NCBI GenBank assembly: GCA_017408585.1
Contig: JAFQUJ010000013.1
Location: forward strand, 1 to 47,138
Length of the DNA stretch: 47,138 nt
Reading direction: 5' to 3'
Source of the DNA: Clostridia bacterium
GTDB lineage: Bacteria > Bacillota > Clostridia > Oscillospirales > CAG-272
Shown: in pieces, positions 11,352 to 34,269 of the stretch
How the letters are laid out: every line of letters starts with the position of its first letter
How positions within the stretch are numbered: the stretch's first letter is position 1
Position numbers and translations under genes: made by a program
Notes under the pieces: generated by a model
What the model was told of the DNA's origin: nothing
Seen by the model: only the letters and a program-made list of their open reading frames with translations
Databases searched by the model: none

Positions 11352-11372
11352 TTTGTCCTCCGTGTTTAGATA

Positions 11373-12368: not shown

Positions 12369-12380
12369 GATGTCTCCTTT

Positions 12381-15523: not shown

Positions 15524-15561
15524 AATTAAATTCCTTTCGTATATTTACTACTTTTTGTAGA

Positions 15562-18033
15562 TTATTTTACCTTTTTTGTTGGTGTATATACCTTATAGTG
15601 ATTTGCGGTGCACGATTTTATAAAATCGCACTCGGCAATCTCTATTGTGTTTCCTCTGTCGGAGAAGAAAATATAGGTTGTACCCTCCTCGAATGGCGGG
15701 GCGTCACAATGCTCTGCTAAAATGCTTGAAATTCTCGGAACGCGAGCATTTTTCGCCACCTTTGCGCCACCCTCAATTACCCAATGCTTATCAGTTGAGA
15801 TTAGGAATAGCTTTGAGCTTGCATCTGTCGATTTCGGCAAGAATATCGAGTATGCGCCATTTGAGTTTCGACGAAGCAATCTCGCCTCGTGCTTGGTGCG
15901 CCACTCCTTTATATCCTTTGCCATAGACATGAGCTCGGCTATCTCTTTAGCAGAGAAAGGATTTAAGCTAGCCCAGAACGCCTCGTCATATGAGCTGATA
16001 GGACGTCCCTTGTAAGATGCGTTTGGATTTATACGGAAGTATTCTTGACCACACGCCGAGCAAGCGCATCTATCTGCCCTTAGATTGAGCTCACTTCTTA
16101 CCTCAACAAAGCCACAATACGGGCAAGCGAACTCCTTGGTTACATTTCCACCATCAAGACGCATATCGTGTGGAAGGAAGTTGTGAGTATCCACGATAAT
16201 TGTAGTTGTATCTTCCTTTATTTTTGATAGCTCCTCTTGAACACCTGAAATGAGAGCCGCAAACGCAAGCCTTGCATTTCCGTTTTCCGGATTGGTAAGA
16301 GCTGTTTCGGTTTCTGAGAGCATTGTGCACATTTGCTCCTGCGAGAAGCAAATCGCCCTCGGGCCTGTGCTCTCAAGCTCGGCAACTCTCTCGGTGAGAG
16401 TCGAAACCGTATGAAGAAGGATATCAAATTTGCCTTGCATATATTCGATAATTTGGTCGCGATTGTCGCTTGCCTTCTTGCCAATTGACAAAATCTCGTT
16501 ATACATTTGCGCCATCTGCTCGCCAATGGTATTAAGTGATGCCATTATTGTTACATTTTGGGCGTGGAGCTTAGCGCACTCGCCTTCAACGACGCTGACA
16601 ATTCTGTCGCCCGTTTCGTCAAGCTTAGAGCTTAGCTCGTCAACCTTTTGGATAACAAGCTCCTTAATGCCCGAGCTAATCGCTGTTATCATTTCGCCGA
16701 TTTGGTTGCGTGCTTGGATAATTGAGCCCTCAATGCGCTCGCCTTGGACATTCATGCACTTTTGCAAGAATTCCTGAGTTGCGACAGTTTCAACGAGCTG
16801 TGTTGCCATATCGTGAATATCGCTTACATCCTCACCAATCTCGTCGGTGCGCTCCTCTAATGCGTTTAGATGCTCAACGGTTGTGGCAATAGCCTCGGTC
16901 ACCTGTGTCTTTAAAGCATCAAGACAGCCAAGGATTTTCGCCTCCTCCTCAATGCCCTTCATAACGGAATATGTAAGACCACACGCCGAGCAATGAAATT
17001 CGCCTGACGCCTCATTGAAATACAAGCGCTCGCCCGAGTATGAGCAATCGGGACATTTACGAGCCAAGAATTTAGGGCTAAACGCGCCAGAGCTGATTTC
17101 GGATAGGCTAATCTCGCCACCGCTTTCAGCGCCCATATGAGCGAGCCTTGTGCTGATAGCTCGTTCAATTGCGCCCTCAAACATTTCCTCAAGGCGCTCC
17201 TCGCTAACACCCTCATAGCCACATACAAAGCCCGCCATTTTATCCTCGAGCATTTCCATTAGGCCCTCAAATCTATCGCCCAAATCCTTATCGAGAATTT
17301 CTCTAAACAAGGATAGTAGCACCTGCTGACCTTGGTCAAGGTCACTTGCATAGCAGGAGCGAAGGAAGCTCTCTCTTGCTCCGTTTAGCATTTCGAGCAA
17401 CAGCTCCTTATCCTGCTGAACCATCTTTTCAGAGTAGAGCTTAGATAAATTTAAGTATTTTTCGATATTTTCCTTATACATATAGTCGGTAAAGAGTGCA
17501 ATTAGCGCCTTTCCGTCGCTACCCGACAAGGGAATATCCGGCATTTCAATTTCGCTTTCGTCGTTTACGGGAATAGGTGGTGGTAGCTGACCCTTTTTCT
17601 TAGCTCTTCTCACCTCACGCTCGTGGCGCTTTTCTTGCTTTTTACGCCTTTTAGCGCCTGCCTCCCATTCCTCGTATGCCTTTTCGCATTCGTCAAAGAC
17701 TATATGCGCCTGCGCAAAGAAGTCTATCTTGTCAAGCTCCGTCTCAAACGGACAATTATCCGTCGAAAACATTTTTCCGCTTGCCAAGTCCTCATAAACC
17801 TTAGCGCCTCTTTTAAGACGAGCTCTTCTCTCTCGTCTAGCCTGAAGGAAATTCTCAGGCATATTACTAATAAGCTCGCCTAAAACATTACCCGCAAGAC
17901 CGCCCAAAGCACCCGAGCAAGCCTCAACAATAGGTATTCCCGCCACCTGATCTATTACGACCGTTGAAACATCGATAGCGACATTAAAAGCGACCTTGAT
18001 TTTGTTCCAAAGTTTTGGTAAAAATGGATGCAT
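15562..18033 (-). CDS. Large zinc-ribbon and coiled-coil protein of unknown function
   Basis: 823 residues. N-terminal about 1-60 is amphipathic/hydrophobic with glycine zippers ('GALGGLAGNVLGELI'), possibly membrane-associating. A basic helical stretch follows (about 118-150). Zinc ribbon 1 has Cys327, Cys330, Cys348, Cys351; zinc ribbon 2 has Cys637, Cys640, Cys658, Cys661. Between them (about 365-560) lies a long coiled coil that resembles the signalling part of chemoreceptors in composition. The C-terminal 150 residues form an unknown domain. No named family recognised overall. There is no Shine-Dalgarno before ATG 18033; a 125-bp inverted-repeat element starts 4 bases upstream and may have displaced the native leader. 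Confidence 0.72.
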   Translation of the reverse strand: MHPFLPKLWNKIKVAFNVAIDVSTVVIDQVAGIPIVEACSGALGGLAGNVLGELISNMPENFLQARRERRARLKRGAKVYEDLASGKMFSTDNCPFETELDKIDFFAQAHIVFDECEKAYEEWEAGAKRRKKQEKRHEREVRRAKKKGQLPPPIPVNDESEIEMPDIPLSGSDGKALIALFTDYMYKENIEKYLNLSKLYSEKMVQQDKELLLEMLNGARESFLRSCYASDLDQGQQVLLSLFREILDKDLGDRFEGLMEMLEDKMAGFVCGYEGVSEERLEEMFEGAIERAISTRLAHMGAESGGEISLSEISSGAFSPKFLARKCPDCSYSGERLYFNEASGEFHCSACGLTYSVMKGIEEEAKILGCLDALKTQVTEAIATTVEHLNALEERTDEIGEDVSDIHDMATQLVETVATQEFLQKCMNVQGERIEGSIIQARNQIGEMITAISSGIKELVIQKVDELSSKLDETGDRIVSVVEGECAKLHAQNVTIMASLNTIGEQMAQMYNEILSIGKKASDNRDQIIEYMQGKFDILLHTVSTLTERVAELESTGPRAICFSQEQMCTMLSETETALTNPENGNARLAFAALISGVQEELSKIKEDTTTIIVDTHNFLPHDMRLDGGNVTKEFACPYCGFVEVRSELNLRADRCACSACGQEYFRINPNASYKGRPISSYDEAFWASLNPFSAKEIAELMSMAKDIKEWRTKHEARLLRRNSNGAYSIFLPKSTDASSKLFLISTDKHWVIEGGAKVAKNARVPRISSILAEHCDAPPFEEGTTYIFFSDRGNTIEIAECDFIKSCTANHYKVYTPTKKVK

Positions 18034-18036
18034 AAT

Positions 18037-18161
18037 GTTTGAGGGGTGATAAGCGTCGCAATACTGCGTTGGGCTTCACCCACGACCTTGTCGTACACTA
18101 AGTACGCCATCGCCCGTGGCTTCCAGTCCGTCTTGTCTTGCTTGCTTCTAACCCCTCAAAC
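18037..18161. repeat. 125-bp element with GTTTGAGGGGT inverted termini
   Basis: Ends are GTTTGAGGGGT (18037-18047) and ACCCCTCAAAC (18151-18161), perfect 11-bp inverted repeats. The middle carries an imperfect palindrome around GTACACTAAGTAC (about 18093-18105) flanked by CCACG / CGTGG. No coding capacity, so it is a MITE- or REP-like unit. It sits between a possible Shine-Dalgarno (AAGGAGAT on the minus strand, about 18191-18198) and the ATG of the zinc-ribbon gene. Confidence 0.6.
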
Positions 18162-18394
18162 TCTTTATTGCTTGAAAGAGGTTAGCCCCTATCTCCTTTT
18201 TATTTATTGATTTGTGGTTGAGCTTTGATAAGCTACATTCTTCTTTGTTGCTGTGGTGCGCCTCGAACAATTTGCTTCTAAAAGCTCAGGCCTCCTTCGA
18301 TTTTTTTAATATAACTACTTCTACTATTTCGTTGCTCCTCGCTGACGAGGAGCGCTATGTATGTGTGCGCCTATTAATTTATGGCGCTTTGAGG
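18162..18394. other. Non-coding stretch between element and small gene
   Basis: No convincing gene. Contains minus-strand AAGGAGAT (about 18191-18198) without a start codon at the right distance. No clear terminator or promoter was seen. Confidence 0.4.
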
Positions 18395-18763
18395 TTATTT
18401 ATTTTCTGCCCAGCGGTTTACGGTGTCCCAGATTTTTTCTGCGCCACTGACGACGGCAGTTGTGCCTTGGGGCTTATAGTAGCCCTCACGGATTTCGGCG
18501 AGCGCTTGCTCGATTTCGACAATGAACGGCTCGGAGTCCTCGCGAACGGTGATTGACGAGAGCCAATTCTTTGATTTCTTTAAGCAATCATATGCAAGCC
18601 TTCCAAGCTCCTCGACGCTCTCGAACACATCGGCGGTTGAAAGAAAGCTTGGTCCCCAATGGATTAGGTAATCGTCGATTTTTCCGCTGATTTTTGCAAC
18701 CCTTTGCTTTAACGCCTCAATTTTTTTAGCGGTCTGCTTTTTCTTTGAGCAAAAAAGTCCCAT
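18395..18763 (-). CDS. Small helical protein of unknown function
   Basis: 122 residues from ATG 18763, which has GAGGAAT upstream and lies one base after the stop of the protease gene, so the two are translationally coupled. (The frame is open further upstream, but that part overlaps the protease gene.) The start 'MGLFCSKKK' has a Gly2 and a Cys near basic residues, compatible with membrane-surface attachment, but no lipobox. The rest is helical ('KIEALKQRVAKISGKIDDYL', 'IVEIEQALAEIREGY'). No family recognised. A partner of the protease is the simplest guess. Confidence 0.65.
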   Translation of the reverse strand: MGLFCSKKKQTAKKIEALKQRVAKISGKIDDYLIHWGPSFLSTADVFESVEELGRLAYDCLKKSKNWLSSITVREDSEPFIVEIEQALAEIREGYYKPQGTTAVVSGAEKIWDTVNRWAENK

Positions 18764-18764
18764 T

Positions 18765-20021
18765 TTATTCCTCCTCGACACAAGCAAGAAGTGCTGAAAG
18801 CTCCGTTTTCGCCTTTGATGTATAAAGCGGAACGAACAACGATGCGCCTCTAACCAAGTCATTATCATTTAGATTTACGCTAAGCGAATGAACGCCGATA
18901 CAGCGTCCGTTTGCCAGCAAAAGCGGTCCACCGCTAGAGCCTGCGTTTGCAGGTGTATCGCATCTTAGATATGATGCGTGCTCGTGATTATAATCGAGCT
19001 GGATTATATGTCCAAACAACGGAACGAGTGATTTGCCAAGGTCATTACCCAAAAGCACGACATCAGCGCCAACTCTGGCTTCCTTTTTGCTCTCGACAAG
19101 TGTGATTTCGTCTGCTCCGTTAGCTCTTGCGGTTGGCACTACTATTTTACATAGTGCTATATCGAGCTCATATGATGGAGCGATGGGCGTTATTTGATAT
19201 TCCGAAACGCTATTTTTAAATGACGCTCTAAGTGCGAGTCTTGGCACGAGCGCTCCGTCTCTTTCCTCGTAGATGACATGGCGCGCGCAAAGCAAATAAA
19301 GCTCACTCTCGCTCTCGCCTTCCTTTTTACGAACAACAAAAGCAGTTCCTCTTGAGGAGCTTGAAAGCACCGCAAGCACACTTCCAAGTCGTTGGTCGGC
19401 AAGGTCGGAGCGTGACAGCGTCATATCCTCGGGCGTTGGAGCTGAGCAACGCTCGCACACAAGCACCTCGACCTCGTTTAGCTTAAGAGTAGTTTCGCCA
19501 TACAGCTCTTCCTTATAAGCCTTGAAGGCGCTATCGCTATCAATTGCGCTCTTAAATTCCTTTATGCTCGGCTCGTCAAGGTCGCTAAATATTGCATTTA
19601 GCTTTGGCAAAAGCTCTGCCCTTAGCACCTCGCCAATTCCCTTTCCGTTCTCGTCATAGGCATATAGGTAGTGGGCTGTTCCAAACGGAAGCTCCACCGT
19701 TTTCATAAAATCAACAAAGTATTTTTCCTTGAAGCGCTTTAAAATCATTATATCAAAGCGAGCGACGCCATTTACACGCCATAGCTCCTCTTGTGATCTG
19801 TTTATGTACTTAAAGCCCCATGGAATTTCTATTCTCGCGTCTGCTCCGTCAGCCTCGCGATAAACGCATAACTTGAAGCTCTTGCGCGCTTTATCAAAGC
19901 TTTCCTCGCACGCAAAGCCTGCCCCAACATAAAACGAGGCGTCCTTGTCGCTATTTGGAATGAAAAATTCAGCGTAAAGCACCCCCGACGGAAGCGGAAG
20001 CGATATTCTCTCCTTGCTCAT
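18765..20021 (-). CDS. Trypsin-like serine protease with novel N-terminal domain
   Basis: 418 residues. Residues about 1-205 form a domain I do not recognise, with 'VCERCSAPTP' (a Cys pair at about 189/192) at its end. Residues about 210-415 are an S1-type chymotrypsin-fold protease: His248 in 'CARHVIYEE', Asp287 in 'YELDIALCK', Ser363 in 'NAGSSGGPLL'. There is no signal peptide, membrane segment or PDZ domain, so unlike DegP/HtrA it should act in the cytoplasm. First gene of the leftward cluster, with AAGGAGAG before ATG 20021. Cytoplasmic trypsin-like proteases in bacteria are often effectors or processing enzymes of conflict systems; a second one is encoded at 24064-25221. Confidence 0.87.
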   Translation of the reverse strand: MSKERISLPLPSGVLYAEFFIPNSDKDASFYVGAGFACEESFDKARKSFKLCVYREADGADARIEIPWGFKYINRSQEELWRVNGVARFDIMILKRFKEKYFVDFMKTVELPFGTAHYLYAYDENGKGIGEVLRAELLPKLNAIFSDLDEPSIKEFKSAIDSDSAFKAYKEELYGETTLKLNEVEVLVCERCSAPTPEDMTLSRSDLADQRLGSVLAVLSSSSRGTAFVVRKKEGESESELYLLCARHVIYEERDGALVPRLALRASFKNSVSEYQITPIAPSYELDIALCKIVVPTARANGADEITLVESKKEARVGADVVLLGNDLGKSLVPLFGHIIQLDYNHEHASYLRCDTPANAGSSGGPLLLANGRCIGVHSLSVNLNDNDLVRGASLFVPLYTSKAKTELSALLACVEEE

Positions 20022-20276: not shown

Positions 20277-20790
20277 ATGCTTCGCAATGCGAAGCAAATG
20301 CAATGCTACGCAAGTGCGGATGTGCGTACACCCCAAGAGTTCAAGCGAAGTGAAGAACGATTGGCTGGTGGTAGCCATGCAAGCGACCGAAGGGAGTCGC
20401 AATGAGGAATGAGGAATGAATTGTGCCTTTGGCACATGAATTGCAACTGCGTTGCATGAATTGAACGCAAGCGTTCATGATTTGCTCCTATGGAGCATTA
20501 ATGCACACAAGGTGTGCAATTCATGACACAGAGTGTCAATTAATGGCATTAGCCGATTCGCGTGCGAAGCGCAATTCTTTTTGGTCGATATGTCCTAACG
20601 GACTCGATATGTTGCTAACGCAACTCGATATGTCAGCGTTGCTGACTCGATATGCTCCTGCGGAGCGTTTTGTTCGCCCACAGGGGCTCCCTGTTGGCTG
20701 TTGAGCCACCTCGACCGGAATTTGCCTCTCGACCCGCGTCGAGTGAATTGACACCTTGTGTCATGAAACTCTACACTCTCACAAGGCTAG
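20277..20790. repeat. Composite mini-hairpin repeat, copy D
   Basis: The most complete copy. The 89-bp block is 20316-20404. Then about 20420-20575 come hairpins with ATGAATT/ATTAAT linkers: GTGCC-ttt-GGCAC, GCAAC-tgc-GTTGC, GAACGC-aa-GCGTTC, GCTCC-tat-GGAGC, GCACAC-aag-GTGTGC, GACAC-aga-GTGTC, GGC-atta-GCC. About 20583-20668 are four TCGATAT-linked hairpins: GTCC-taac-GGAC, GTTGC-taac-GCAAC, GTCAGC-gtt-GCTGAC, GCTCC-tgc-GGAGC. Then a GGGGCTCCCTGTTGG segment and GACAC-ctt-GTGTC. No gene. Confidence 0.88.
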
Positions 20791-21968: not shown

Positions 21969-21969
21969 C

Positions 21970-22009
21970 AAAAAAGAGAGCTATCGGCTTGACCGATGCT
22001 CTCTTTTTT
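21970..22009 (-). terminator. Terminator of the ESCRT-like operon
   Basis: Inverted repeat AAAAAAGAGAGC..GCTCTCTTTTTT with an ATCGG/CCGAT inner stem, 11 nt after the stop of the last gene (22020). Symmetrical T/A tracts mean it could work in both directions. Confidence 0.85.
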
Positions 22010-22019
22010 GTTTATTTGA

Positions 22020-24050
22020 TTATTTTAGGCTATTTATAACATCCGATGAGTAGTCGCTGTCGCCACTATCGCCATTATCTCCGTCCTCGTCGCCGTTATC
22101 GTCGCCGTTATCGTCGTCGCTATCACTTGGGGCGTTATCGCCATCATCTGCGGGGGTTTCGTTTGCGGGTGTGTCGATAATTGGCTTTTCCTCTGCCTCA
22201 ATTGCATCGTCGATTACCTCGCTATCGGGCATATCGAGGCTTGCGGGGGCAAAGCCCTCGTCGTCCTCGGGAGTGGGGGTATAATCAACAGGGACATTGG
22301 GGTTTGGAGCGACATCAATAGGCGCTTCAATGGGAGCTTCGGGAGTTACATCAATAGGAGCTTCGGGAGTTACATCAATAGGAGCTTCGGGAGCGCTTAC
22401 ATCGCTTGGAGTGTCTGAATTCGGTGCATCTGCGCTGTCAGCGCCATCGTCACCATCAAGCTTTCTAAGGTGAGCGCGACCGAGGTCGGTAATTGCTCTA
22501 CCTCTGTTGATAATGGTAACAAAGCCGATTTTGATAAGGTACGGCTCAAACTTGCTCAAAAGCACCTTTACATCCATGCCCATCTTACTTGCGAGAGTGT
22601 CAGCGGAAACTACGCCGGCAGGGTCGGTTGCGATTGCACGGAGAATGTCGATATCAGTTTGCTCAAGACCGATTTCGTCAACGCCTCTAACCTTGAAATA
22701 TTCCTCGAGAATATCCTCGGTGATTACGCGAGTGTCGATATAGTCAGCCTCGGTGAGAAGTCCGAGAACGATAGCCTCAACCTCACGGATTGAGCAACGG
22801 CATCTGGCGATACATCTCTCGATTAGCTCGTCGCTGATTTGAAGCTTTTTAGATGCGAACTTTCTCTTGAAGATGAGCATTAGCTCGTCATGTGTGTAGT
22901 CCTTTAGAGTAAAGGTTAGGTTTTTACAACGGTCTTGAATCGTGTCGAGAACATCCTGTGGGTCGGTGGTAGCGCCGATAAATGTGAATGCCTCAATTGG
23001 AATGTTGTGGTTGTGACCGCTGTTATCCATATAAATGAACACTCTGCTTTGAAGAAGTGTCAAAAGCGATGACTGAATTTTCTTTGGAAGAGCGTGAATT
23101 TCGTCGATACCGATTACAACAGGCTCGTTTGCCATTGAAATGTTTTGAAGGAATGCAAGGAATTGCTTTTCAGAGGTGTGTGAGCTTTGGAATTGTGACG
23201 CGTCAATCCATTCAAATCTAACGCCCAGCTCGTTTGCGATAATTTGCATAAGAGTTGTCTTTCCAAGACCGCGATTACCAAATAGAAGAATGTTTGAAAG
23301 GTATTTAATGCCTCTCTTCTTCGCTACTGCAATCTCCTTCTTTAGACGCTTTACAATGTCGGCTTGACCGATAAAGTCGTCGAGCATTTGAGGAGCTTTA
23401 ATTCTGTTGGGGTCCTCTGCCTCCTCCTCTGCGACATAGCTATCGCCTGCATCGTCCTCGATTACGGGCATTTCAACCTCGCTCACAGTCTCGTCACCGT
23501 CATTTTCAGCCACAGGGGCGTAGGTTTCGCCCTCGCTTGCCTCGACGGGAGCGTCAGGTGTGACATCATCAACAGGAGTGTCGATGGGGGCTTCGGGAGT
23601 AGTATCAACAGGAGTTTCGGGAGCAACATCAATTGGCGCTTCCGGAGTAACATCAATTGGCTCTTCGCTCTCACCAAGGATATCGAACAATCCCGACGAG
23701 CCCTCGTCTGCGTCCTCGGATACAGGAGCAGAGCTTTCTGTCTGTGGTGGAGCAACGGGGGTGGCAGGAGTGGTAGCTACGGGCTCGGGCTTGGGAACAT
23801 ATTTGATTCCAAAGAACGCAAGCACTGCAGGGTCTCTTAGACCGTTTTGCTTCATTCTAGCCATGACATCGCTCATTTTAGCGTACAATTGCTTTGAGAG
23901 GATTTTCTCAACAATTGAGCCACGCTCAAATAGCTCCTCTACATATTTATAAAGCTTGTAGAGGTTTTCTATTGCCTCTGCGTCGTTTTCGCCGATAATT
24001 GTAGCATTACGAGCAGTAACATAGTACATTCTTAGTGTGTTTATATCCAT
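22020..24050 (-). CDS. RuvB-like AAA+ ATPase with MIT-like N-terminal domain
   Basis: 676 residues, twice the length of RuvB. Residues 1-85: helical domain homologous to the N-terminus of the next protease ('TAR..AI..N', 'E.LYK', 'IV.K', 'NG......V.AFF.I'). 90-205: acidic Pro/Ala-rich linker with EAPIDV-type repeats. About 215-460: AAA+ core with 'DDFIGQADIVKRLK', Walker A 'GNRGLGKTT' (258-266), Walker B 'IGIDEIHAL' (Asp316, Glu317) and sensor-1 'FIGATTDP' (357-364), all in RuvB style. About 465-530: winged helix as in RuvB. 535-676: more EAPIDVTP repeats and an Asp-rich tail. It is not the housekeeping RuvB (no ruvA beside it, extra domains). Last gene of the operon; AAAGGAG precedes ATG 24050. 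It may act on protein or DNA; unknown. Confidence 0.88.
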   Translation of the reverse strand: MDINTLRMYYVTARNATIIGENDAEAIENLYKLYKYVEELFERGSIVEKILSKQLYAKMSDVMARMKQNGLRDPAVLAFFGIKYVPKPEPVATTPATPVAPPQTESSAPVSEDADEGSSGLFDILGESEEPIDVTPEAPIDVAPETPVDTTPEAPIDTPVDDVTPDAPVEASEGETYAPVAENDGDETVSEVEMPVIEDDAGDSYVAEEEAEDPNRIKAPQMLDDFIGQADIVKRLKKEIAVAKKRGIKYLSNILLFGNRGLGKTTLMQIIANELGVRFEWIDASQFQSSHTSEKQFLAFLQNISMANEPVVIGIDEIHALPKKIQSSLLTLLQSRVFIYMDNSGHNHNIPIEAFTFIGATTDPQDVLDTIQDRCKNLTFTLKDYTHDELMLIFKRKFASKKLQISDELIERCIARCRCSIREVEAIVLGLLTEADYIDTRVITEDILEEYFKVRGVDEIGLEQTDIDILRAIATDPAGVVSADTLASKMGMDVKVLLSKFEPYLIKIGFVTIINRGRAITDLGRAHLRKLDGDDGADSADAPNSDTPSDVSAPEAPIDVTPEAPIDVTPEAPIEAPIDVAPNPNVPVDYTPTPEDDEGFAPASLDMPDSEVIDDAIEAEEKPIIDTPANETPADDGDNAPSDSDDDNGDDNGDEDGDNGDSGDSDYSSDVINSLK

Positions 24051-24063
24051 TTAAAATTCTCCT

Positions 24064-25221
24064 TTAGAAGCTTAGGTTGTGCTTTTTCTTCCACTCGTCA
24101 AGTAGCTTTTTAACCTGATTCATTGGTGTTGCGTTAGTAAAGCCCTGCGTTTTTACGCCATTTACAGACACAGTAAGCGACTTATTGATGCCGACTACAT
24201 ATCCGTTACGGTCAAGAACTGGGCCACCGCTACAGCCGGGATTTGATGGCGCTGAGAAAACAAGGTCGCCACAGTTGTTACAGGTGTAGCTTACAGTTCC
24301 CGTAAAGGGGGCAATTCCCTGCGATACGGGATTTCCAATTAGAACAACCGCTGCGCCGGGGCGAAGGGTGCTATAATCGGGGATTAGTGGTAGAGTTGCA
24401 AAGCTCGGAAGGCTTGATGGGGTAAATCGACAGAGCGCAACATCGTAGGTTTCGTCTGCGTCGATAAATTTAAGCTCATACATTCTTCTCGAATCGCTAA
24501 AGCACATATATATCTCGTCGTGGAATTGGTTCTTATATTTGTCCGCAACTACGACATGGTGGTTGGTGAGCAAGAAGCCCTTATCGCTTATGATAAAGCC
24601 TGTGCCTGCACCACCGGGAACATGGACTGTAACAACGCCCCTTATGCTCTTATCGTACACAGCCTCGCTCCATTCCTGGTCTGCCCTTGGCATAACAGGC
24701 GGAACAAGCGCCTCGGGCGCTTTTGGCGTGACTATGGGTGGCACAGAGATTGGCCTTGTGGGCGCTGTGCCGACGCTATCACCCTTTGGCGTGGAGCTGA
24801 TAGGTGGAGCTACCACCGGCTCGACAGGTGTCTCTACCTTAGGTGAGGTAGCTACGGGCTGAGTGGGTGTAGGCTTTGGTGTGACCGGTGTTGTAGGTCT
24901 TGGCGTGCTCTCGCTGGGTGGAGTTATCTTAACGGATTTGCCAACAGGCTCGCTTGGTGGTGTGGATACGATAGATATCTTGAAAAACGCACACACCTCC
25001 TCGTTAATTCCGTTCGACGAGAGAATGCTTATAACGCTCTTTATTTGGTCGATGGTGCTTCTGCACTTAGCCTTATCAACGATAGTTTTACACATTGGCA
25101 GAGTGTCGAGCAGATAGCCAAGACACTTGTAGAGCTGTTCACGACAGCCCTTTGGATTTTTCGCTATCGCAAATTCTCTTGCGGTCTTATACGCCAAAGC
25201 GAAGGGGTTTTGTGTAGCCAT
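24064..25221 (-). CDS. Cytoplasmic trypsin-like protease with MIT-like N-terminal domain
   Basis: 385 residues. Residues 1-85 are helical and align with the N-terminus of the RuvB-like protein. 88-182 is a Pro/Thr-rich flexible linker. 190-385 is an S1 protease: His222 in 'LLTNHHVV', Asp260 in 'TYDVALCRF', Ser331 in 'NPGCSGGPVL' (Cys in place of the usual residue before Ser), and 'CNNCG' at about 314-318. No signal peptide or PDZ domain, so it acts inside the cell. The layout (recruiting domain, long tether, protease) suggests it is brought to a scaffold by its N-terminus. It lies 14 nt from the Vps4-like gene and 13 nt from the RuvB-like gene; AAAGGAAT precedes ATG 25221. Confidence 0.88.
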   Translation of the reverse strand: MATQNPFALAYKTAREFAIAKNPKGCREQLYKCLGYLLDTLPMCKTIVDKAKCRSTIDQIKSVISILSSNGINEEVCAFFKISIVSTPPSEPVGKSVKITPPSESTPRPTTPVTPKPTPTQPVATSPKVETPVEPVVAPPISSTPKGDSVGTAPTRPISVPPIVTPKAPEALVPPVMPRADQEWSEAVYDKSIRGVVTVHVPGGAGTGFIISDKGFLLTNHHVVVADKYKNQFHDEIYMCFSDSRRMYELKFIDADETYDVALCRFTPSSLPSFATLPLIPDYSTLRPGAAVVLIGNPVSQGIAPFTGTVSYTCNNCGDLVFSAPSNPGCSGGPVLDRNGYVVGINKSLTVSVNGVKTQGFTNATPMNQVKKLLDEWKKKHNLSF

Positions 25222-25235
25222 GATTAATTCCTTTA

Positions 25236-26657
25236 TTAGTTTAGTCTGTTTTTAATGGATTCAATAAGGTCGAGAAGCGCCTTAATATCGCCCTCAAGCG
25301 AGTCGGCGTTAGTTCTTCTCTCCTCTTCCTCTTGACGCTCAAAATCAGCCATTAGGCGAGCCTGCTCGTCAAGATCCTCGATCCAACGCTTAACATGAGG
25401 CGGAACCTCCTTGCCACTTGCGATTAGGCCTCTTGCAACGCTCTCGTATTGAGCGAAGTATTCCTCAAGAGATTGTCCTGTCGCATAAGCGTCGTATCTA
25501 AATAGCTCCTCGTCGGAGGTTGAAAGTATGTAGTCCTTTAATACTGCCTCGCAGTCCTCGAGAGTAATTCCCACAGGTGGTGGAGCACCATTTGGCTTTA
25601 GATGGTAGAAAATCTCACGCTTCATGGCGAGGTTAGCCATCTGTCTGCACGCAGCCTTAATATCTGCGCCCGCATAGCCCTCAAAGCGTCTTGCAAGGAA
25701 GTCTAGCGTTACCTCGGGGGCAACAGGAATTTTAAGCTTTGCATTAGGGCCCATGCCGAGAGCGCCTGAAATAAGGTGCTTTCTAGCCACGAAGTCGGGC
25801 AGGGGCATATAAATTTTTGTTTCAAAGCGTCCGCCACGCATAATAGCGCTATCAAGCGCCCAAGGACGGTTTGTCGCTGCGATTATAATACGGAGCTGAT
25901 TTGGCTTTGTTGTAGCCATAAATCCGTCCATATTTGTAAGGAGCTGAGTAAATTGCTCCTTTGAATGCCTTGATTCGTCATCGTCACGAGAGGTTGCGAT
26001 AGAGTCGATTTCGTCAAAGAAGATAATACACTTATCAAGCTCTCTTGCCTGCTCGAACACCTCGCTTATAACCTTAGCGCCCTCGCCGACATACTTAGAC
26101 ATAACATCCTTTACCTGAACTACTGCAATCTTACAGCCAAGCTCACCTGCAAGGCACTTAACCGCAAAGGTTTTACCTGTACCGGGAGGGCCATAAAGCA
26201 ATACCTGAAGACCAACATCAGAGCGATATCTTTTATAGATTTCTGCGGTTTCGGGAGCGAATGGTGCGAAAATGTTAAGAAGGAATGCCTCCTTAACCTT
26301 TTGAAGACCGGCAATATCCTTTAGCTTTAGCTTTGGAACATCGTCGCTAAACCACTTTGTTCCTCCACCGCCCTCGCCGTTTGCGCCACCGCCACCGTTT
26401 GCACCGTTTCCTGTGCTGTTTGCGTTAGCGTTAGTGTACTTGCCTGCCTTGTAGTTGGCAAGGAAGTCCTGAGCCATCTTTCCACACGAGATATAAACAT
26501 TCTTCATCTCGGGGCGAATATCATTCTTTTGAGATTGCTCGGTTGCAATCTTTACAATCATGTTTGCAACGGGAACAGCCTCGTTATATTGCTTGGCTTG
26601 AAATTTAGCCTTAAAATCAGCGACATGCTGATTAAACATATCAAATATAGTTGCCAT
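25236..26657 (-). CDS. Vps4-like AAA ATPase with MIT-like N-terminal domain
   Basis: 473 residues. 1-72: three-helix MIT-like domain ('QYNEAVPVANMIVKIATEQS', then 'YISCGKMAQDFLANYK'). 73-100: Gly/Asn-rich linker. About 108-350: classical meiotic-clade AAA module with 'IAGLQKVKEAF', Walker A 'GPPGTGKT' (146-153), pore loop 'SKYVGEGAK' (177-185, compare SKWMGESEK in Vps4), Walker B 'IIFFDEIDS' (Asp195, Glu196), sensor-1 'ATNRP' (231-235) and arginine fingers in 'MRGGRFE' (Arg244, Arg247). The C-terminal 120 residues are helical. The order MIT-linker-AAA is that of Vps4/katanin. It should form a hexamer that threads or disassembles polymers, most likely those of the two upstream coiled-coil proteins. 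AAGAGG precedes ATG 26657. Confidence 0.88.
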   Translation of the reverse strand: MATIFDMFNQHVADFKAKFQAKQYNEAVPVANMIVKIATEQSQKNDIRPEMKNVYISCGKMAQDFLANYKAGKYTNANANSTGNGANGGGGANGEGGGGTKWFSDDVPKLKLKDIAGLQKVKEAFLLNIFAPFAPETAEIYKRYRSDVGLQVLLYGPPGTGKTFAVKCLAGELGCKIAVVQVKDVMSKYVGEGAKVISEVFEQARELDKCIIFFDEIDSIATSRDDDESRHSKEQFTQLLTNMDGFMATTKPNQLRIIIAATNRPWALDSAIMRGGRFETKIYMPLPDFVARKHLISGALGMGPNAKLKIPVAPEVTLDFLARRFEGYAGADIKAACRQMANLAMKREIFYHLKPNGAPPPVGITLEDCEAVLKDYILSTSDEELFRYDAYATGQSLEEYFAQYESVARGLIASGKEVPPHVKRWIEDLDEQARLMADFERQEEEERRTNADSLEGDIKALLDLIESIKNRLN

Positions 26658-26700
26658 ATAAACCTCTTATTTTAAGATTTGGCGAGCCGTTGGCTCTTGC

Positions 26701-26750
26701 TTGCCCAATTTATAAATTTGGAAAAAGGGCAAACAATAAATTGAATGCCC
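26701..26750 (-). promoter_or_regulatory. Alternative-pairing hairpins before the Vps4-like gene
   Basis: GGGCAA (26727-26732) can pair either with TTGCCC (26701-26706) or, as GGGCA, with TGCCC (26746-26750). On the minus strand the second hairpin is followed by CTTTTTCC, like a weak terminator. This could tune the ratio of scaffold proteins to ATPase; speculative. Confidence 0.3.
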
Positions 26751-26769
26751 TTGATCAAGTTTCGATTGA

Positions 26770-27531
26770 TTAAATAGTGCCGTTTCCGCCACCGTTTACA
26801 TCATCCATCATGCCAAGAAGGTCATTGATGCCTGCGCCACCGGCGCTAGCGCCACTATCACCTGCGGGAGCGCTTGGTGAAGGAGTAGCTCCTGCACCTG
26901 CACCGCCACCTACGGTAGCGCCTGCCATGTTAGTTGCGGGATTTGTAGCGGGAGTTGTAGCCTCTGCGGTAACAGGAGTGGTTGCTACGCCACCAAGTCT
27001 TGCAGCGATACGAGCCTCGCGTCTTTCTTGACATCTCTTGAGAGTGTCGGCATCGCTCTGTCTTGAGCCTGTGTAGATATCGGTAAATCTCTTGCCCTTA
27101 CCTGTTCTCATGTCATCACGCATGCCACGGATTTGCTGACGGAAGCGACCGAGCTTTCTTCTAAGAGCGTTAAAGCCCTTTGAAATGCCGGTAAGGCTGG
27201 GGATACCGCTGATAACCTTGTTACAGCCCTTAATGTATGCGGGGAGCTTGCTTACGCTATTGAAAGCAAGTGTGATATTTGCCATGCTACGAATAGAGGT
27301 TCTGATGTACTTGAACTCACGAGCCATGTCCTCCATGTCTGCTTGAACCTGGAGAAGCTCGTTTGAAAGCTCGTCATCGCCATTGAGCGCAGCCTCGTCA
27401 ATTTCGTTATCAAGGCTTCTTGCAAAGCTCTCAAAGGTGTTAACTGCCTCGTCTATCTCTACGATAGCGTTAGCAATCTTTTCCTTTATTTTGAGTTCCT
27501 TTTCCATTTGTCTTTCTTCTGCTGTTTTCAT
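26770..27531 (-). CDS. ESCRT-III/CHMP-like coiled-coil protein, copy 2
   Basis: 253 residues. 1-150 is almost all helix: charged alpha-1 (5-45), a second long helix ('ELLQVQADMEDMAREFKYIR', 58-77), then 'SMANITLAFNSVSKLPAYIK' (82-101) and a basic stretch 'GFNALRRKLGRFRQQIRGMR' (119-138). This run resembles CHMP1-type helices 2-4 in spacing ('SMAGVVKSM.....M', 'ISALM..F'). A basic motif 'ERREARIAARLGGVATT' (169-185) and a disordered Thr/Ala/Gly tail follow, ending in a short amphipathic 'GINDLLGMMDDV' (234-245) that could be an MIT-interacting motif. No signal peptide or TM. Homology to ESCRT-III is by pattern only. AAGGAGAAT precedes ATG 27531. Confidence 0.6.
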   Translation of the reverse strand: MKTAEERQMEKELKIKEKIANAIVEIDEAVNTFESFARSLDNEIDEAALNGDDELSNELLQVQADMEDMAREFKYIRTSIRSMANITLAFNSVSKLPAYIKGCNKVISGIPSLTGISKGFNALRRKLGRFRQQIRGMRDDMRTGKGKRFTDIYTGSRQSDADTLKRCQERREARIAARLGGVATTPVTAEATTPATNPATNMAGATVGGGAGAGATPSPSAPAGDSGASAGGAGINDLLGMMDDVNGGGNGTI

Positions 27532-27589
27532 TAATTTATTCTCCTTAAATAGTTAAACTTTGTAGGTTAGTAGCTTTCCTGTTAATAGG

Positions 27590-28279
27590 TCAGCTTGGAT
27601 TGGTGTTTGTGTTTGGAGTTGTATTTGCGTTAGTGTTTGTGTTAGGTGCAGTAACATCGATAGGCGCTTCTGCGGTTGCGGTTGCTCCGTATCTTCTCTC
27701 CAAGCGCTCTCTGCGTGCGTGTGCATCTGTATTGAGGCTTCTTGAGGTGCGTGCAACATCTCTTGTTCTTCTTCTTCTCTTGCTTGATGCCTCGATTTTT
27801 GCAAGGATACGAGCATTCTCTTGGCTGAACTTCTTCTCAAGCTTTTCTACAAGCTGTAAAACGCTTGAAATCTTGTTTACATCACCAACTAGAGCCGGGA
27901 GTCTTTTCTCGGGAATGTTCTTGATAACGAATTTGAAATCGCCTCTTTCATAGAACATACAAAGTGTCTTGTGAAGGCTATCAAGAAGGTTTGCGCTTCT
28001 TCTAAACTGTGTCAAAAGAAGTCTGTGGTCCTCGATTGTTGCCTCAAGAGTTTCTATTCTGTCCTGAAGGTCGTCGATTTCTGCAAACTCAGCGTCCGGA
28101 ATTGACTCAAGAGGTCTGCCTCCAATCTTTGCAGCAACGAGAGCGTCAAGAGTTGCAAGCTCGCTCTCCATCTTCTTAATTTGAGCGTCAACATCGTTTG
28201 CGCGCTTTTCGTAGTCCTCGCGACAATCAACAACAACGCCTATTTCATTCATCGCTCTTTCTTGTGGTGTTAATCTCAT
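27590..28279 (-). CDS. ESCRT-III/PspA-like coiled-coil protein, copy 1
   Basis: 229 residues, first gene of the operon; AAAAGGAG precedes ATG 28279. Helical hairpin-like region at about 20-100 ('VDAQIKKMESELATLDALVA', 'LQDRIETLEATIEDHRLLLT'), then 'LLDSLHKTLCMFYERGDFKF' and 'VNKISSVLQLVEKLEKKF', a basic stretch 'KRRRRTRDVARTSR', and 'HARRERLERRYGATATA' (187-203), which mirrors the motif of the next protein. The tail is Asn/Thr/Pro rich and contains one EAPIDVT, the unit repeated in the linkers of the RuvB-like protein. No TM. It resembles ESCRT-III/PspA proteins in length and helix order; I cannot exclude another coiled-coil fold. Confidence 0.58.
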   Translation of the reverse strand: MRLTPQERAMNEIGVVVDCREDYEKRANDVDAQIKKMESELATLDALVAAKIGGRPLESIPDAEFAEIDDLQDRIETLEATIEDHRLLLTQFRRSANLLDSLHKTLCMFYERGDFKFVIKNIPEKRLPALVGDVNKISSVLQLVEKLEKKFSQENARILAKIEASSKRRRRTRDVARTSRSLNTDAHARRERLERRYGATATAEAPIDVTAPNTNTNANTTPNTNTNPS

Positions 28280-28347: not shown

Positions 28348-28390
28348 ATTATAGCGTACAAGGGGTGTGTGATGGTCACAAAATTGTGAC
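28348..28390 (-). promoter_or_regulatory. Promoter and operator of the ESCRT-like operon
   Basis: Minus-strand -10 TATAAT (28348-28353), no good -35 at 17 nt. Instead the inverted repeat GTCACAA-aa-TTGTGAC (28375-28390) is centred about 41 bp upstream of the expected transcription start, the position of an activator that contacts the polymerase. The repeat resembles the core of the shared 20-bp motif (GTCGCA-N5-TGTGAC). Confidence 0.5.
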
Positions 28391-28996
28391 AATTTATAAG
28401 TCTGCTTTACTACATTTCTCTTTCCTTATCATATGTGATTAAATTGTACGCGACAAGGTGCGCTTTACAGCGTTAACCTCGGTGTATGTAACCATTTTAA
28501 AGCATTCCAAGGCGAGTGCGGTCGCATTTTTTGTGACATATGATATTTTTTAAACGGATAATAAGAAAATTTTGTAAAACTATCACATAATAATATTAAC
28601 ATTTTAATAAATAAATGTCAAGAGATTTTGTTTGATTTCTACCTTATTAATATAAAAAATTAAAAAAATCAACATTTTTTCGCGCGATAAAGGCTCGTTC
28701 GACAAGCACCCCTAAAAACTTGCCAAAAAATGCCAAATAAAATATTATCATTTATTACCCGTTCTAAACGCTCAAAACAAAATTTTATTTGACAGCGCGC
28801 TTCGTCAAGCTTTGCCGTCGAGAAATGTTAAAATGGATATGGAAAAGGCAAAAGCAAGGTACAAGGGCTTGCTCTTGTCGCTTGTCTTTTCCGTCGCAAA
28901 TGCGACAAAATTTCAAGGGGCGCTCGCCTCGCTTGTGCTAGTGCGTGGGCGAGTGCTTTGCCTTGGCAAAAAAAGAAAGGAGAGGTAAGGAAAGGA
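28391..28996. other. Intergenic region between ESCRT-like operon and noc
   Basis: About 600 bp, AT-rich in the middle (28540-28680). It holds the 20-bp motif copy 2. A 51-codon frame at 28833-28988 ends just before the noc start but has no ribosome binding site; I do not call it. The promoter of noc was not identified with certainty. Confidence 0.5.
28519..28538. promoter_or_regulatory. 20-bp motif shared with the Hsp70/protease cluster, copy 2
   Basis: CGGTCGCATTTTTTGTGACA, identical to 20254-20273 and in the same orientation relative to the operon it precedes. It lies about 165 bp upstream of the -10 at 28348. Confidence 0.6.
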
Positions 28997-29824
28997 ATGG
29001 GTATTTATTACCAAAAAATGCCAAAAAGCAACGAGGAAGGAGTGATTTTATCAATAGAAATCAGCAAGATTAGCGCAAACCCAAATCAGCCACGCAGAGC
29101 GTTTCCCGACGATGCGATTTTGAAGCTGGCGGATAGCATTCGACAGTACGGAATTTTACAGCCCCTGTGCGTTAGACGCATGGGCGACGGGTACGAGCTA
29201 ATCTCGGGAGAGCGTCGCTTAAGAGCCTCAAAGGAGCTTGGAATGACTCATGTTCCGTGCGTTTTGATGGAGATTGACGAGTGTCAAAGCGCTGAAATTT
29301 CGATTATTGAGAACCTAATGCGTGAAGACTTGAACATATTTGAGCAGGCGATGGCTATCGAGGCGCTGATTGATACATACGGTCTTACGCAGGAGCAGAT
29401 AGCAAGAAGGCTCTCAAATAGCCAATCGTTTGTGGCGAACAAGCTTCGCTTGCTCCGTCTTAGTGAGAGCGAGCGTGAAAAAATTCTCGAAAATGGGCTA
29501 ACCGAGCGCCACGCGAGAGCACTTTTGCGCATTTTAGACCCCGAATTGCGTGATAAGGTGCTATCAAAAATCATCGAGGACGGACTTAATGTAAGTCGCA
29601 CCGAGGAGCTAATCGAGCAGATTTTGAGCAAAAATGACCCCAAAAGAGCCAAAAATCCTACGCCAATAAAGGATATGAGGTCGTTTTATGCGTCAATTGA
29701 TAGGCTTATAGACTCGGTCAAGCTTTCCGGAATAGACATAAAAAGCCGAATTGTCGAAAGCGACACCTTCACAGAGCTGACAATTCTTATTCCAAGCACC
29801 GACACAGAGCCGGCGACGGTGTAA
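28997..29824 (+). CDS. noc: ParB-family nucleoid occlusion protein, Noc-like
   Basis: 275 residues from ATG 28997 (preceded by GGAGAGG; an upstream ATG at 28958 lacks a ribosome binding site). ParB N-terminal domain: 'ISANPNQPRRAF', 'GILQPLCVRR', 'YELISGERRLRASKELG', the CTP-binding GERR box included, and 'IIENLMREDLN'. Central HTH: 'LTQEQIARRLSNSQSFVANKLRLLRL'-type region followed by 'LTERHARALL' and 'LNVSRTEELIE', which are closer to Noc than to Spo0J. Noc binds DNA near the origin and keeps division septa off the nucleoid; a canonical ParB is encoded separately at 33376. Its own sites differ slightly from parS in Bacillus, so which of the two binds the nearby repeats is open. Confidence 0.85.
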   Translation: MGIYYQKMPKSNEEGVILSIEISKISANPNQPRRAFPDDAILKLADSIRQYGILQPLCVRRMGDGYELISGERRLRASKELGMTHVPCVLMEIDECQSAEISIIENLMREDLNIFEQAMAIEALIDTYGLTQEQIARRLSNSQSFVANKLRLLRLSESEREKILENGLTERHARALLRILDPELRDKVLSKIIEDGLNVSRTEELIEQILSKNDPKRAKNPTPIKDMRSFYASIDRLIDSVKLSGIDIKSRIVESDTFTELTILIPSTDTEPATV

Positions 29825-30319
29825 ATCGAGTGAGGAATGAGGAGTGAGGAGTGCGGAATGCGTAATGAGGAATGCACACAAGTCGATATGTCCTAACGGA
29901 CTCGATATGTTGCTAACGCAACTCGATATGCGCTTCGTGCTCGATATGCTCCTGCGGAGCGTTCGGTTTGCCACCGGTGGCTCACCGGCTTCGTTGGTGT
30001 GTTGCAATTTTGGCCATACAAAAGCGGGATATGGCTCTCGACCCGCGTCGAGTGCGGATGTGCGCACACCCCAAGAGTTCAAGCGAAGCGAAGAACGATT
30101 GGCTGGCGGTAGCCATGCAAGCGACCGAAGGGAGTCGCAATGCGGAATGAATTGTGCCTTTGACACATGAATTGCAACTGCGTTGCATGAATTGAACGCA
30201 AGCGTTCATGATTTGCTCCTGTGGAGCATTAATGCACACAAGGTGTGCAATTCGTGACACGGAGTGTCAATTAATGGCGTTAGCCAATTCATGTTGCGCA
30301 GCAACTATTCACGCCGAAT
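29825..30319. repeat. Composite mini-hairpin repeat, copy F
   Basis: Starts at the noc stop. Order differs from copy D: first TCGATAT-linked hairpins (29880-29962: GTCC-taac-GGAC, GTTGC-taac-GCAAC, GCTCC-tgc-GGAGC), then the 89-bp block (30054-30142, about three changes relative to copy D), then ATGAATT-linked hairpins (30150-30318) ending in GGC-gtta-GCC and GTTGC-gca-GCAAC. It runs up to the first parS site. No gene. Confidence 0.87.
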
Positions 30320-32596: not shown

Positions 32597-33379
32597 ATGT
32601 CACAAATTATTTCCTTTGTAAACCAAAAGGGCGGAGTGGGAAAAACCACCTCTGCGATTAATACTGCGACGATGCTTTCGGTAAAGAATTTTAAGGTTTT
32701 GCTAATTGATATGGACCCACAGGGAAGCTCGACAAGTGGCGTCGGAATAATGAAGAGTCAGCCGAAAAATACCGCATATGAGGTTTTGATTGGCAAGTGC
32801 GATATTCGTAGCGCAATAATTGAAACGCGCTTCAAGAATTTGCACATTATTCCCTCGAATGTGTCGCTTGCGGCAGCGGATTATGAGCTAATCTCCGAGG
32901 TAGGTCGAGAGTTCTTTCTCAAAAAACAGCTCGCCACACTCATGAACAGTTGCTCATATGACTACATAATCATTGACTGTCCACCATCAATCGGCCTTAT
33001 AACGATAAACGCCCTAAGCGCAAGCAATTCAATAATAATTCCCCTTCAATGCGAATATTATGCGCTCGAGGGGCTTTCACAGCTGATGCTCACAATAAAA
33101 AAGGTTAAACAGCTCTATAATCCACGCCTATTTATCCTTGGCATATTGGTTACAATGTTTAACTCACGCCTCAAAATCTGCAATCAGGTTCACGAGGAGC
33201 TGAAAAAATACTACGAGGACAAGCTGTTTAAAACGAAAATTTCACGCACAGTAATGCTTTGCGAAGCGCCAAGCTATGGCGAGCCGATTTATTACTATGC
33301 AAAATATTCCAAGCCTAGCCTTCAATACGAGGCGTTGGCGGAGGAAATTATATCACGAACGGGAGGATTTTTAATATGA
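32597..33379 (+). CDS. parA: Chromosome partitioning ATPase ParA (Soj)
   Basis: 260 residues with the deviant Walker A 'NQKGGVGKTTSAIN' (about 8-21), 'LLIDMDPQGSSTSG' (switch I/Walker A') and 'YIIIDCPPSIGL' (Walker B). ParA dimers bind DNA non-specifically and work with ParB-parS in origin segregation. GAGGTAA precedes ATG 32597. The stop overlaps the parB start by 4 nt (ATGA). Confidence 0.95.
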   Translation: MSQIISFVNQKGGVGKTTSAINTATMLSVKNFKVLLIDMDPQGSSTSGVGIMKSQPKNTAYEVLIGKCDIRSAIIETRFKNLHIIPSNVSLAAADYELISEVGREFFLKKQLATLMNSCSYDYIIIDCPPSIGLITINALSASNSIIIPLQCEYYALEGLSQLMLTIKKVKQLYNPRLFILGILVTMFNSRLKICNQVHEELKKYYEDKLFKTKISRTVMLCEAPSYGEPIYYYAKYSKPSLQYEALAEEIISRTGGFLI

Positions 33380-34269
33380 AGAGAACAGGTCTTGGCAAGG
33401 GACTGGAATCCATCTTTGCCGATAACTATAATGAAAAGCCCGAGAGCAAGACAGGAGATGGCATTTCAAAAATCAAGCTCTCGCAAATTGAGGTAAAGAG
33501 CGACCAACCAAGAAAGTATTTCAACACCGAGGCGCTCGAGGCACTTGCTGACTCAATTTCACAGCATGGCGTTCTTCAACCGATTTTGGTGCGCTTAGTT
33601 GAAAGTGGCTTTTATCAAATTATCGCAGGTGAGCGCAGATATCGTGCAGCGAAGATGGCAGGCCTTAGCGAAATCCCTGCAATTATAATTGACGCAGACG
33701 ACCTCAAAACTGCTGAAATTGCACTTATTGAAAATCTTCAAAGAGAGGACTTAAATCCCTACGAGGAAGCGCAGGCTTATGCATCGCTTATGCGTGATTT
33801 TGGCTTGACACAAGAGGAGCTAAGCGCAAGAATCGGCAAATCTCGTAGCGCAATTGCGAACACGCTTCGCTTGCTCGACTTGCCCGACGATGTGCTTGAA
33901 ATGCTCAAAACGGGCGATATCTCGGCAGGCCACGCAAGAACCCTTTTGGGACTCAAAAACAAGGACGCTATCGTTGATGTAGCGCTCAAAATTCTTGAAA
34001 GCTCACTCTCTGTAAGAGATACAGAGGCGCTTGTTAAGAAGCTCAATCGCCTTTATGAGCTGTCAGAGCAGGATCCTGAGCCTGAGACAATCAAGGTTGA
34101 CTATGTTGGCGACCTCGAAAGACGCGCAAGGGAGCTTTTAGGACGCCAAATCAAGATTAAGGCTAAGGGCAAGAGCAAGGTTGTTCAAATCGAATTTAAC
34201 GATAACGAGGACCTCGAGGAGCTACTTGTTAAGCTCTGTGGCAAGGGAATTATCGAGGGCGTGCTATGA
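33376..34269 (+). CDS. parB: Chromosome partitioning protein ParB (Spo0J)
   Basis: 297 residues. 'KRTGLGKGLESIF' is the ParA-stimulating N-terminal peptide with the conserved basic/Gly pattern. 'SDQPRKYF', 'SISQHGVLQPILVR', 'YQIIAGERRYRAAKMAGL' (CTPase box) and 'ALIENLQREDLNPYEEA' follow, then the HTH 'LTQEELSARIGKSRSAIANTLRLLDL' region and 'GHARTLLGL'. The C-terminal dimer domain is present ('RRARELLGRQIKIKAKGKSK'). It should bind the parS sites at 30320-30722 as a CTP-dependent clamp. It overlaps parA and the next gene by 4 nt each. Confidence 0.95.
   Translation: MKRTGLGKGLESIFADNYNEKPESKTGDGISKIKLSQIEVKSDQPRKYFNTEALEALADSISQHGVLQPILVRLVESGFYQIIAGERRYRAAKMAGLSEIPAIIIDADDLKTAEIALIENLQREDLNPYEEAQAYASLMRDFGLTQEELSARIGKSRSAIANTLRLLDLPDDVLEMLKTGDISAGHARTLLGLKNKDAIVDVALKILESSLSVRDTEALVKKLNRLYELSEQDPEPETIKVDYVGDLERRARELLGRQIKIKAKGKSKVVQIEFNDNEDLEELLVKLCGKGIIEGVL

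Follow-up and report, generated by a model that had tools for sequence, protein, structure and literature searches.

A conserved bacterial operon encoding a putative divergent ESCRT-III protein, a Vps4-like AAA ATPase, a trypsin-like protease and a RuvB-like ATPase

The five-gene operon and its conservation

Here, we analyze a five-gene operon on a 47,138-nt stretch of DNA (the window), which is contig 8 of a 1.48-Mb, 69% complete genome of a Clostridia bacterium. An earlier note, made from the sequence alone, had described the operon as a candidate bacterial version of the endosomal sorting complex required for transport (ESCRT), with two CHMP-like coiled-coil proteins, an ATPase of the Vps4 type, a protease and a RuvB-like ATPase. 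In the order of transcription, genes 1 to 5 encode CC1, CC2, the AAA protein, the trypsin-like protease and the RuvB-like protein. All five leftward open reading frames (ORFs) are present on the minus strand and, together with the signals that flank them, are located as follows:

27590..28279, minus strand: CC1, encoded by the first gene; helical, 229 aa, with a family motif around IPEKxLP
26770..27531, minus strand: CC2, 253-aa protein, most likely divergent ESCRT-III (Snf7)-like; variable linker followed by a short conserved tail at the C terminus, which in most relatives resembles DIDAITAMIDEE
25236..26657, minus strand: Vps4-like ATPase of the classical AAA type, 473 aa; a small helical domain at the N terminus and a linker precede one AAA domain and a C-terminal part
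24064..25221, minus strand: trypsin/HtrA-type serine protease, 385 aa; N-terminal domain in common with the RuvB-like protein
22020..24050, minus strand: RuvB-like AAA+ ATPase, 676 aa; winged-helix C domain and N-terminal domain in common with the protease
21969..22011, minus strand: intrinsic terminator that ends the operon; limits are those of the folded hairpin
28348..28390, minus strand: putative promoter/operator, with a perfect -10 element and the perfect palindrome GTCACAATTTTGTGAC

The genes are as closely spaced as had been described, with intergenic gaps of 58, 112, 14 and 13 bp, and a purine-rich Shine-Dalgarno-like stretch precedes the ATG of each of them (5/5). The predicted terminator is strong, consisting of a hairpin and a U run (-27.7 kcal/mol, z -7.6). 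In the case of the predicted promoter, a perfect TATAAT (28353-28348) and a perfect palindrome (GTCACAA-TT-TTGTGAC, 28390-28375), the positions of which were counted by hand on the window sequence, support the claim, whereas no good -35 element was seen and the site was absent from the output of the promoter scan. Genes 3 to 5 match the Pfam families AAA (1.9e-39), Trypsin_2 (7.2e-20), and RuvB_N and RuvB_C (1.1e-21 and 1.8e-13), respectively; for CC1 and CC2 of the window, no family scored above its curated cut-off.

A search with the AAA protein against 84,980 species genomes returned eight loci (47-55% identity), in all of which CC2 lies directly upstream of the AAA gene (seven by BLAST, L038 by phmmer). 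In the opposite direction, all five new full-length loci found with a CC2 profile have an AAA gene adjoining CC2, and L073, a distant locus added later, carries CC2 (E 5.5e-9), the AAA gene (3.1e-97) and the RuvB-like gene (7.4e-71) in a row. The resulting set comprises the window and these 14 loci, which include six from Clostridia, one from Alloclostridium and one from Alphaproteobacteria. The adjacency of CC2 and the AAA gene was recovered from both search directions and holds in 15/15 loci; the earlier note had named a failure of the coiled-coil and Vps4-like genes to co-occur as grounds for abandoning its idea, which the pairing of CC2 with the AAA gene leaves standing. The contiguous order CC1-CC2-AAA-trypsin-RuvB is found in 7 of the 15 loci (window, L032, L033, L035, L036, L037 and L039), and 42 of 51 gaps in the 14 loci measured are shorter than 60 bp. 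CC1 is linked by phmmer in nine loci, by position only in L038, and less strongly, at the family level, in L059-L062 (hhalign 78%); it was not found in L073. The Walker motifs of the AAA protein are intact in 14/14 loci examined; for the protease, all three motifs sought are present in 10/12 loci, including an intact window copy, the histidine pattern having missed L060 and L062. Altogether, the five genes are real and exactly placed, and they form a conserved and unusual operon.

Using the CC2 profile, we found CC2 in 1 of the 391 genomes of the window's class, which is the window's own, and no clear relative in the other 390; three partial matches (E 1e-5 to 6e-4), each within an ORF of 609-1207 aa, were taken as chance coiled-coil and left out of this count. 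With the window CC2 alone as the query, 1 of 57 genomes near the window was positive, again its own, and the 56 near relatives were without it. In the genomes around five other carriers, carriers included, the counts were 7/151, 6/199, 1/197, 10/270 (near the genome of L059) and 1/241, leaving out one match inside a 623-aa ORF (E 5e-4) that was likewise taken as chance coiled-coil. When plasmids and phages were searched with the AAA gene by tblastn, no match reached 80% coverage of the query; the matches listed (best 15 of 1998 and 15 of 93 records) are other AAA proteins or unannotated places. Three scans of viral contigs gave no relative. Two loci have additional genes at the core: in L073, the most divergent locus, a second AAA-like ATPase gene (L073:448-1752) lies directly upstream of CC2-AAA-RuvB, and in L034 a partial CC1 duplicate of 116 aa (L034:8049-8399) lies between the gene for a type IV secretion system (T4SS) coupling protein and intact CC1.

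CC2 and the AAA protein as a putative ESCRT-III/Vps4 pair

Vps4 binds the tails of ESCRT-III proteins through its MIT domain and disassembles the polymers. For CC2, the similarity to ESCRT-III proteins comes from its relatives: Snf7 was the best Pfam match in four of five further relatives scanned, L059 (E 2e-5), L060 (4.5e-5), L061 (0.0027) and L062 (5.1e-5). The L059 match covers residues 8-180 on positions 3-168 of the 171-position model and is the sole family match, as is that of L061. The four scores (24.7, 23.6, 23.4 and 17.8 bits) are all under the curated cut-off of 27.3, and three of them exceed the best background score for Snf7 in the 391 genomes of the window's class (21.2 bits). 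Neither four reversed nor two shuffled control sequences (four shuffles were made and two scanned) matched Snf7, and PspA_IM30 is absent from the complete Pfam lists of the CC2 proteins of L059-L062. With the widest CC2 profile, CHMP2A was top of 177,635 PDB sequences (E 0.016), the alignment of positions 9-128 on 10-134 being collinear with the hairpin turn in register; with an earlier 14-row profile, CHMP2A ranked third (E 0.036, 9-131 on 10-130). The most conserved block of CC2 is the tail of ~13 residues after the variable linker, with a mean pairwise identity of 41.6% versus 21.5-32.8% for the other blocks (linker 25.9%), calculated on 11 of 14 rows with the near-identical L060-L062 left out. 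We suggest that this tail may act like an MIT-interacting motif. Gene 2 most likely encodes a divergent ESCRT-III (Snf7) protein, and we regard the ESCRT-III ancestry of CC2 as highly probable.

Of the two CHMP-like proteins that had been proposed, CC2 is the one that stands, on the sub-cut-off Snf7 signal of its relatives. CC1 is not detectably related to CC2 in a profile comparison (probability 9%), and Snf7 is neither among the best 25 of the 50 families listed for nine CC1 members nor in the complete family lists of seven more. The candidate role of CC1 as a second ESCRT-III protein is, hence, not supported.

The AAA protein contains the pore-loop string SKYVGEGAK, as had been reported. 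Its proposed MIT-linker-AAA architecture is borne out with respect to a small N-terminal helical domain, a linker and a single AAA domain, but an MIT domain was not detected; the N-terminal ~70 residues have a TPR/MIT-like helix pattern, and their best PDB matches are designed TPR repeats. In a maximum-likelihood tree of 33 sequences, the AAA domains of the system group with human and yeast Vps4 with an ultrafast bootstrap (UFBoot) value of 100. This tree contains 14 AAA proteins of the system, five related AAA proteins from species of one genus, human and yeast Vps4, both p97 domains and 10 FtsH sequences kept from 24, and its panel is without katanin, spastin, PAN and CdvC; with this caution, we conclude that the AAA protein appears to group with Vps4, apart from FtsH and p97. 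The family also carries the PWxLD and IYxPLP signatures. The NCBIfam CdvC model aligned to position 364 of 370, reaching the C-terminal helix after the lid; because the alignment of p97 D2 extends there too, this helix is not specific to Vps4. The sequences closest to the operon AAA outside the system in the tree are long proteins with a C-terminal AAA domain from five species of the same genus (L002-L006); the only such long protein scanned (L063:8206-12117, 1303 aa) has MORN repeats.

Proposed function, counter-evidence and alternatives

The earlier note had further envisaged that the protease and the RuvB-like ATPase are tethered through domains resembling that of the AAA protein. The two enzymes have N-terminal regions of 85 residues that belong to one family (hhalign 97.8%, E 8.8e-13), and a joint model of this domain matches only these two genes among the 997 ORFs of 15 stretches, plus one marginal match (E 0.012). 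In contrast, the N-terminal domain of the AAA protein is not detectably homologous to those of the protease and the RuvB-like protein (20.7% and 0.5%). Thus, the common domain of the two enzymes was recovered, whereas the link to the AAA protein was not. Because both enzymes have this domain, which is the clearest evidence on the matter, we infer that they may dock to a common partner. The RuvB-like protein contains the RuvB ATPase and winged-helix domains and has its Walker motifs; because its score of 172 is far below the equivalog cut-off of 282, we refer to it as RuvB-like and not as RuvB. The winged helix is a building block of most ESCRT systems according to the available part of Makarova et al. 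(2024, PMC10936438), and the one in the RuvB-like protein may be a parallel to it.

On balance, we lean towards the operon being a bacterial ESCRT-III/Vps4-like module that is carried by mobile elements and functions as a stress or conflict system with polymer-gated proteolysis. According to this model, CC2 would polymerize as an ESCRT-III-type subunit, with the polymer contacting a membrane; the Vps4-like AAA protein would read CC2-type tails via its small N-terminal helical domain and disassemble or remodel the CC2 polymer, as in the Vps4/CdvC paradigm; CC1 would regularly accompany them as a helical partner, possibly in a nucleating or adaptor role; and the protease and the winged-helix RuvB-like ATPase would be docked to the same assembly by the N-terminal domain that they share. 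Assembly of the polymer at a damaged or invaded site would then gate proteolysis and the activity of the cargo. Among possible functions, a mobile-element-borne stress or conflict system appears the most likely because the operon occurs in few genomes, in some of them next to integrases or a conjugation gene, and its cargo changes. In detail, the gene for a tyrosine recombinase of one family precedes CC1 by 207 bp in L033 and the first gene by 278 bp in L059 and is found at a distance of one gene in L039, an integrase of another family lies nearby in L037, and genes for T4SS coupling proteins are present upstream in L034 and ~14 kb downstream of the operon in L066, which is the continuation of L039. 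The cargo varies by locus and includes leucine-rich repeat (LRR), HSP70-like, zinc-ribbon coiled-coil and transmembrane (TM) proteins. The system, hence, seems to be rare, partly mobile, of variable cargo and defense-like. The ESCRT idea is probably right at its center, i.e., genes 2 and 3. Only tentatively do we go further and propose a true bacterial ESCRT on mobile elements of Clostridia-type bacteria, which would be wired through the N-terminal domain to the protease and the RuvB-like ATPase and form a defense or stress polymer that gates proteolysis at damaged membranes.

Several results speak against this proposal. For CC2, the window protein itself has no Snf7 match, nor does L058, the CC2 family consensus or any protein of the window's own genome, and Snf7 is not among the best 25 of the 40 families listed for a 9-member alignment of window CC2. 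The L061 score (17.8 bits) is below the background maximum of 21.2 bits, and because the four Snf7-positive proteins are closely related, the other three sharing 73-87% identity with the first, their signal amounts to about one observation and not four. The E-values for CHMP2A are weak, the alignment at E 0.016 has a large composition bias, and PDB searches with two other CC2 profiles and with the single L059 and L073 sequences gave no ESCRT-III protein among the matches listed. For the AAA protein, the arginine-finger region reads RGGRF (GGRF) where Vps4 has RRRF; the NCBIfam scores for CDC48 (173.8), the proteasome-activating nucleotidase (159.9) and FtsH (159.3) are higher than that for CdvC (144.6 bits); and a comparison of the AAA profile with the PDB has p97/CDC48 at the top and no Vps4 among the best 60 listed. 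Because scores of this kind take no account of derived features held in common, we follow the tree, with caution, over them. The three MIT domains of the earlier note find no support: hhalign comparison with approximate sequences of three Vps4 MIT domains gave 3.8% (AAA protein), 2.1% and 0.8%, and Pfam MIT had no match in the window's genome, though it matches in Sulfolobus. At the level of the operon, hydropathy gave no transmembrane segment in any of the five window proteins; the trypsin gene is present in 12 of the 15 loci and missing from L034, L038 and L073; the RuvB-like gene is present in 12 of the 15 and was not found in L038, L058 and L061, of which the stretches of L058 and L061 end at a contig end; neither N-domain model matched in L073; and no integrase or coupling protein of the above families lies beside the operon in the window.

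Alternatively, the operon could encode a soluble AAA-plus-protease machine for quality control or defense, in which CC1 and CC2 would be non-ESCRT coiled-coil scaffolds and the AAA protein would feed substrates to the protease. Defense systems of the Iet type (IetAS) pair an AAA ATPase with a serine protease, and the PADLOC IetA models match the AAA protein (2.3e-36); however, this match is limited to the AAA core, and the other PADLOC 2023 matches of 10 window proteins are similarly to AAA, protease and coiled-coil regions of unrelated systems, with no specific match to the CC2-AAA pair. The intact protease motifs of the window copy and the lack of an ESCRT-III signal in CC1 would fit such a machine, whereas the Snf7 and CHMP2A signals of CC2 and the preservation of the CC2-AAA pairing in the loci that lack the protease (L034, L038 and L073) would not, and we consider it unlikely. 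It is also quite improbable that the system serves the biology of the mobile elements themselves, i.e., transfer, segregation or conflict between elements, with the RuvB-like ATPase acting on DNA: the integrase directly upstream in L033 and L059, the coupling proteins of L034 and L066 and the RuvB_N and RuvB_C domains agree with this idea, but the RuvB-like gene was not found in 3/15 loci (two cut by a contig end), and the window copy is without the integrases and coupling proteins in question. A housekeeping system for membrane remodeling or division, comparable to archaeal Cdv, is very improbable because the very patchy distribution (1/57 near the window, 1/391 in its class and 10/270 near the genome of L059) and the integrases and T4SS gene near some loci stand against it, even with an ESCRT-III/Vps4-like core and a window copy near genes that by eye resemble parA/parB, rnpA and yidC.

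The ESCRT-III/Vps4-like module that we favor resembles the archaeal Cdv system (ESCRT-III and Vps4; CdvB and CdvC) in that a Snf7-type helical subunit appears to be encoded just upstream of a Vps4-like ATPase with a single AAA domain, and also in the small N-terminal helical domain of the ATPase and in the variable linker and conserved C-terminal tail of the ESCRT-III-like subunit. It differs in being bacterial and very divergent, without a detectable MIT domain and with GGRF instead of RRRF, and in its further partners, namely CC1 and the two enzymes with their shared N-terminal domain, the protease of the trypsin type and the RuvB-like ATPase. With the bacterial PspA/Vipp1 proteins of the ESCRT-III superfamily, which sometimes neighbor AAA ATPases according to the available part of Ravi et al. 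(2024, PMC11237479), it would have the helical hairpin superfamily in common; unlike them, CC2 relatives match Snf7, with no PspA_IM30 for L059-L062, and a Vps4-like AAA gene is adjacent in 15/15 loci. In bacterial Snf7/PspA-AAA operons, a Snf7- or PspA-clade gene is also associated with a classical AAA ATPase. Those in the available part of the same paper have a TM-anchored Snf7 homologue together with ABC transporter and PBPB/OmpA genes, or else a TPR/6TM gene replacing snf7, and none is described there with trypsin-like and RuvB-like partners. Finally, the operons of NTP-dependent conflict systems bring AAA+ chaperones and trypsin-like peptidases together with adaptor domains and variable effectors; their core, in contrast, is MoxR-vWA and others, and "RuvB" has 0 occurrences in the text of Kaur et al. 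(2020, PMC7159879). Among the titles and abstract openings of the literature searched, mostly outside subscription papers and bioRxiv, none concerned a bacterial operon that combines ESCRT-III and Vps4 with both a protease and a RuvB-like protein.

In the available part of Makarova et al. (2024, PMC10936438), systems of ESCRT-III and Vps4 are confined to archaea and eukaryotes, and our model, if true, would extend this boundary to bacteria. The operon would then be a distant bacterial version of the machinery that bends and cuts membranes in our own cells, combined with a protease and another motor protein. It would also provide a small test system for the remodeling of ESCRT-III-like polymers by an AAA ATPase and show a way to tether other enzymes to a polymer. 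Given the scattered occurrence of the operon, in part next to mobility genes, ESCRT-like machinery would join the candidate defense or mobile-element functions of bacteria.

Neighboring genes and dispersed elements

Downstream of the operon, a second leftward run (window 10557-20021, minus strand) encodes a trypsin-like protease, a zinc-ribbon coiled-coil protein, TM proteins and a protein weakly resembling HSP70/actin. Because relatives of three of its genes adjoin the operon in other genomes, this run may belong to the system. Genes of the run include:

18765..20021, minus strand: further protease of the trypsin type, 418 aa, encoded by the first gene of the run; without the shared N-terminal domain
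18395-18868, minus strand: possible accessory gene, 157-aa protein; relative in L034
15562-18033, minus strand: possible accessory gene, 823-aa zinc-ribbon coiled-coil protein; relatives in L032, L034 and, weakly, L062
12381..14882, minus strand: possible accessory gene, 833 aa; weak similarity (E about 8e-5) to the L062 HSP70-like protein and the 604-aa protein of L058

Among the cargo of other loci, the LRR proteins at L059:6500-9754 and L062:4525-7113 match TIR_2 below the threshold (20.4 and 21.9 bits against a cut-off of 28).

A dispersed intergenic repeat family is present in the window at 991-1149, 2728-3064, 20312-20745, 29882-30318 and 44550-44656, with copies of ~50-300 bp that are roughly 76-97% identical and occur in both orientations. 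Two of these flank the operon and were considered as the ends of an element; this was rejected because additional copies lie at about 1, 2.8 and 44.5 kb. By eye, the intergenic palindrome TGATATCATGATATCA recurs at about 839, 10309, 20807, 20915, 21421 and 21693, several of these copies being just downstream of the operon. Also by eye, two ORFs are ParB-like (28958-29824 and 33376-34269, plus strand), the first of which adjoins the operon, and a ParA-like ORF lies at 32597-33379, apart from the ParB-like ORF at 28958-29824.

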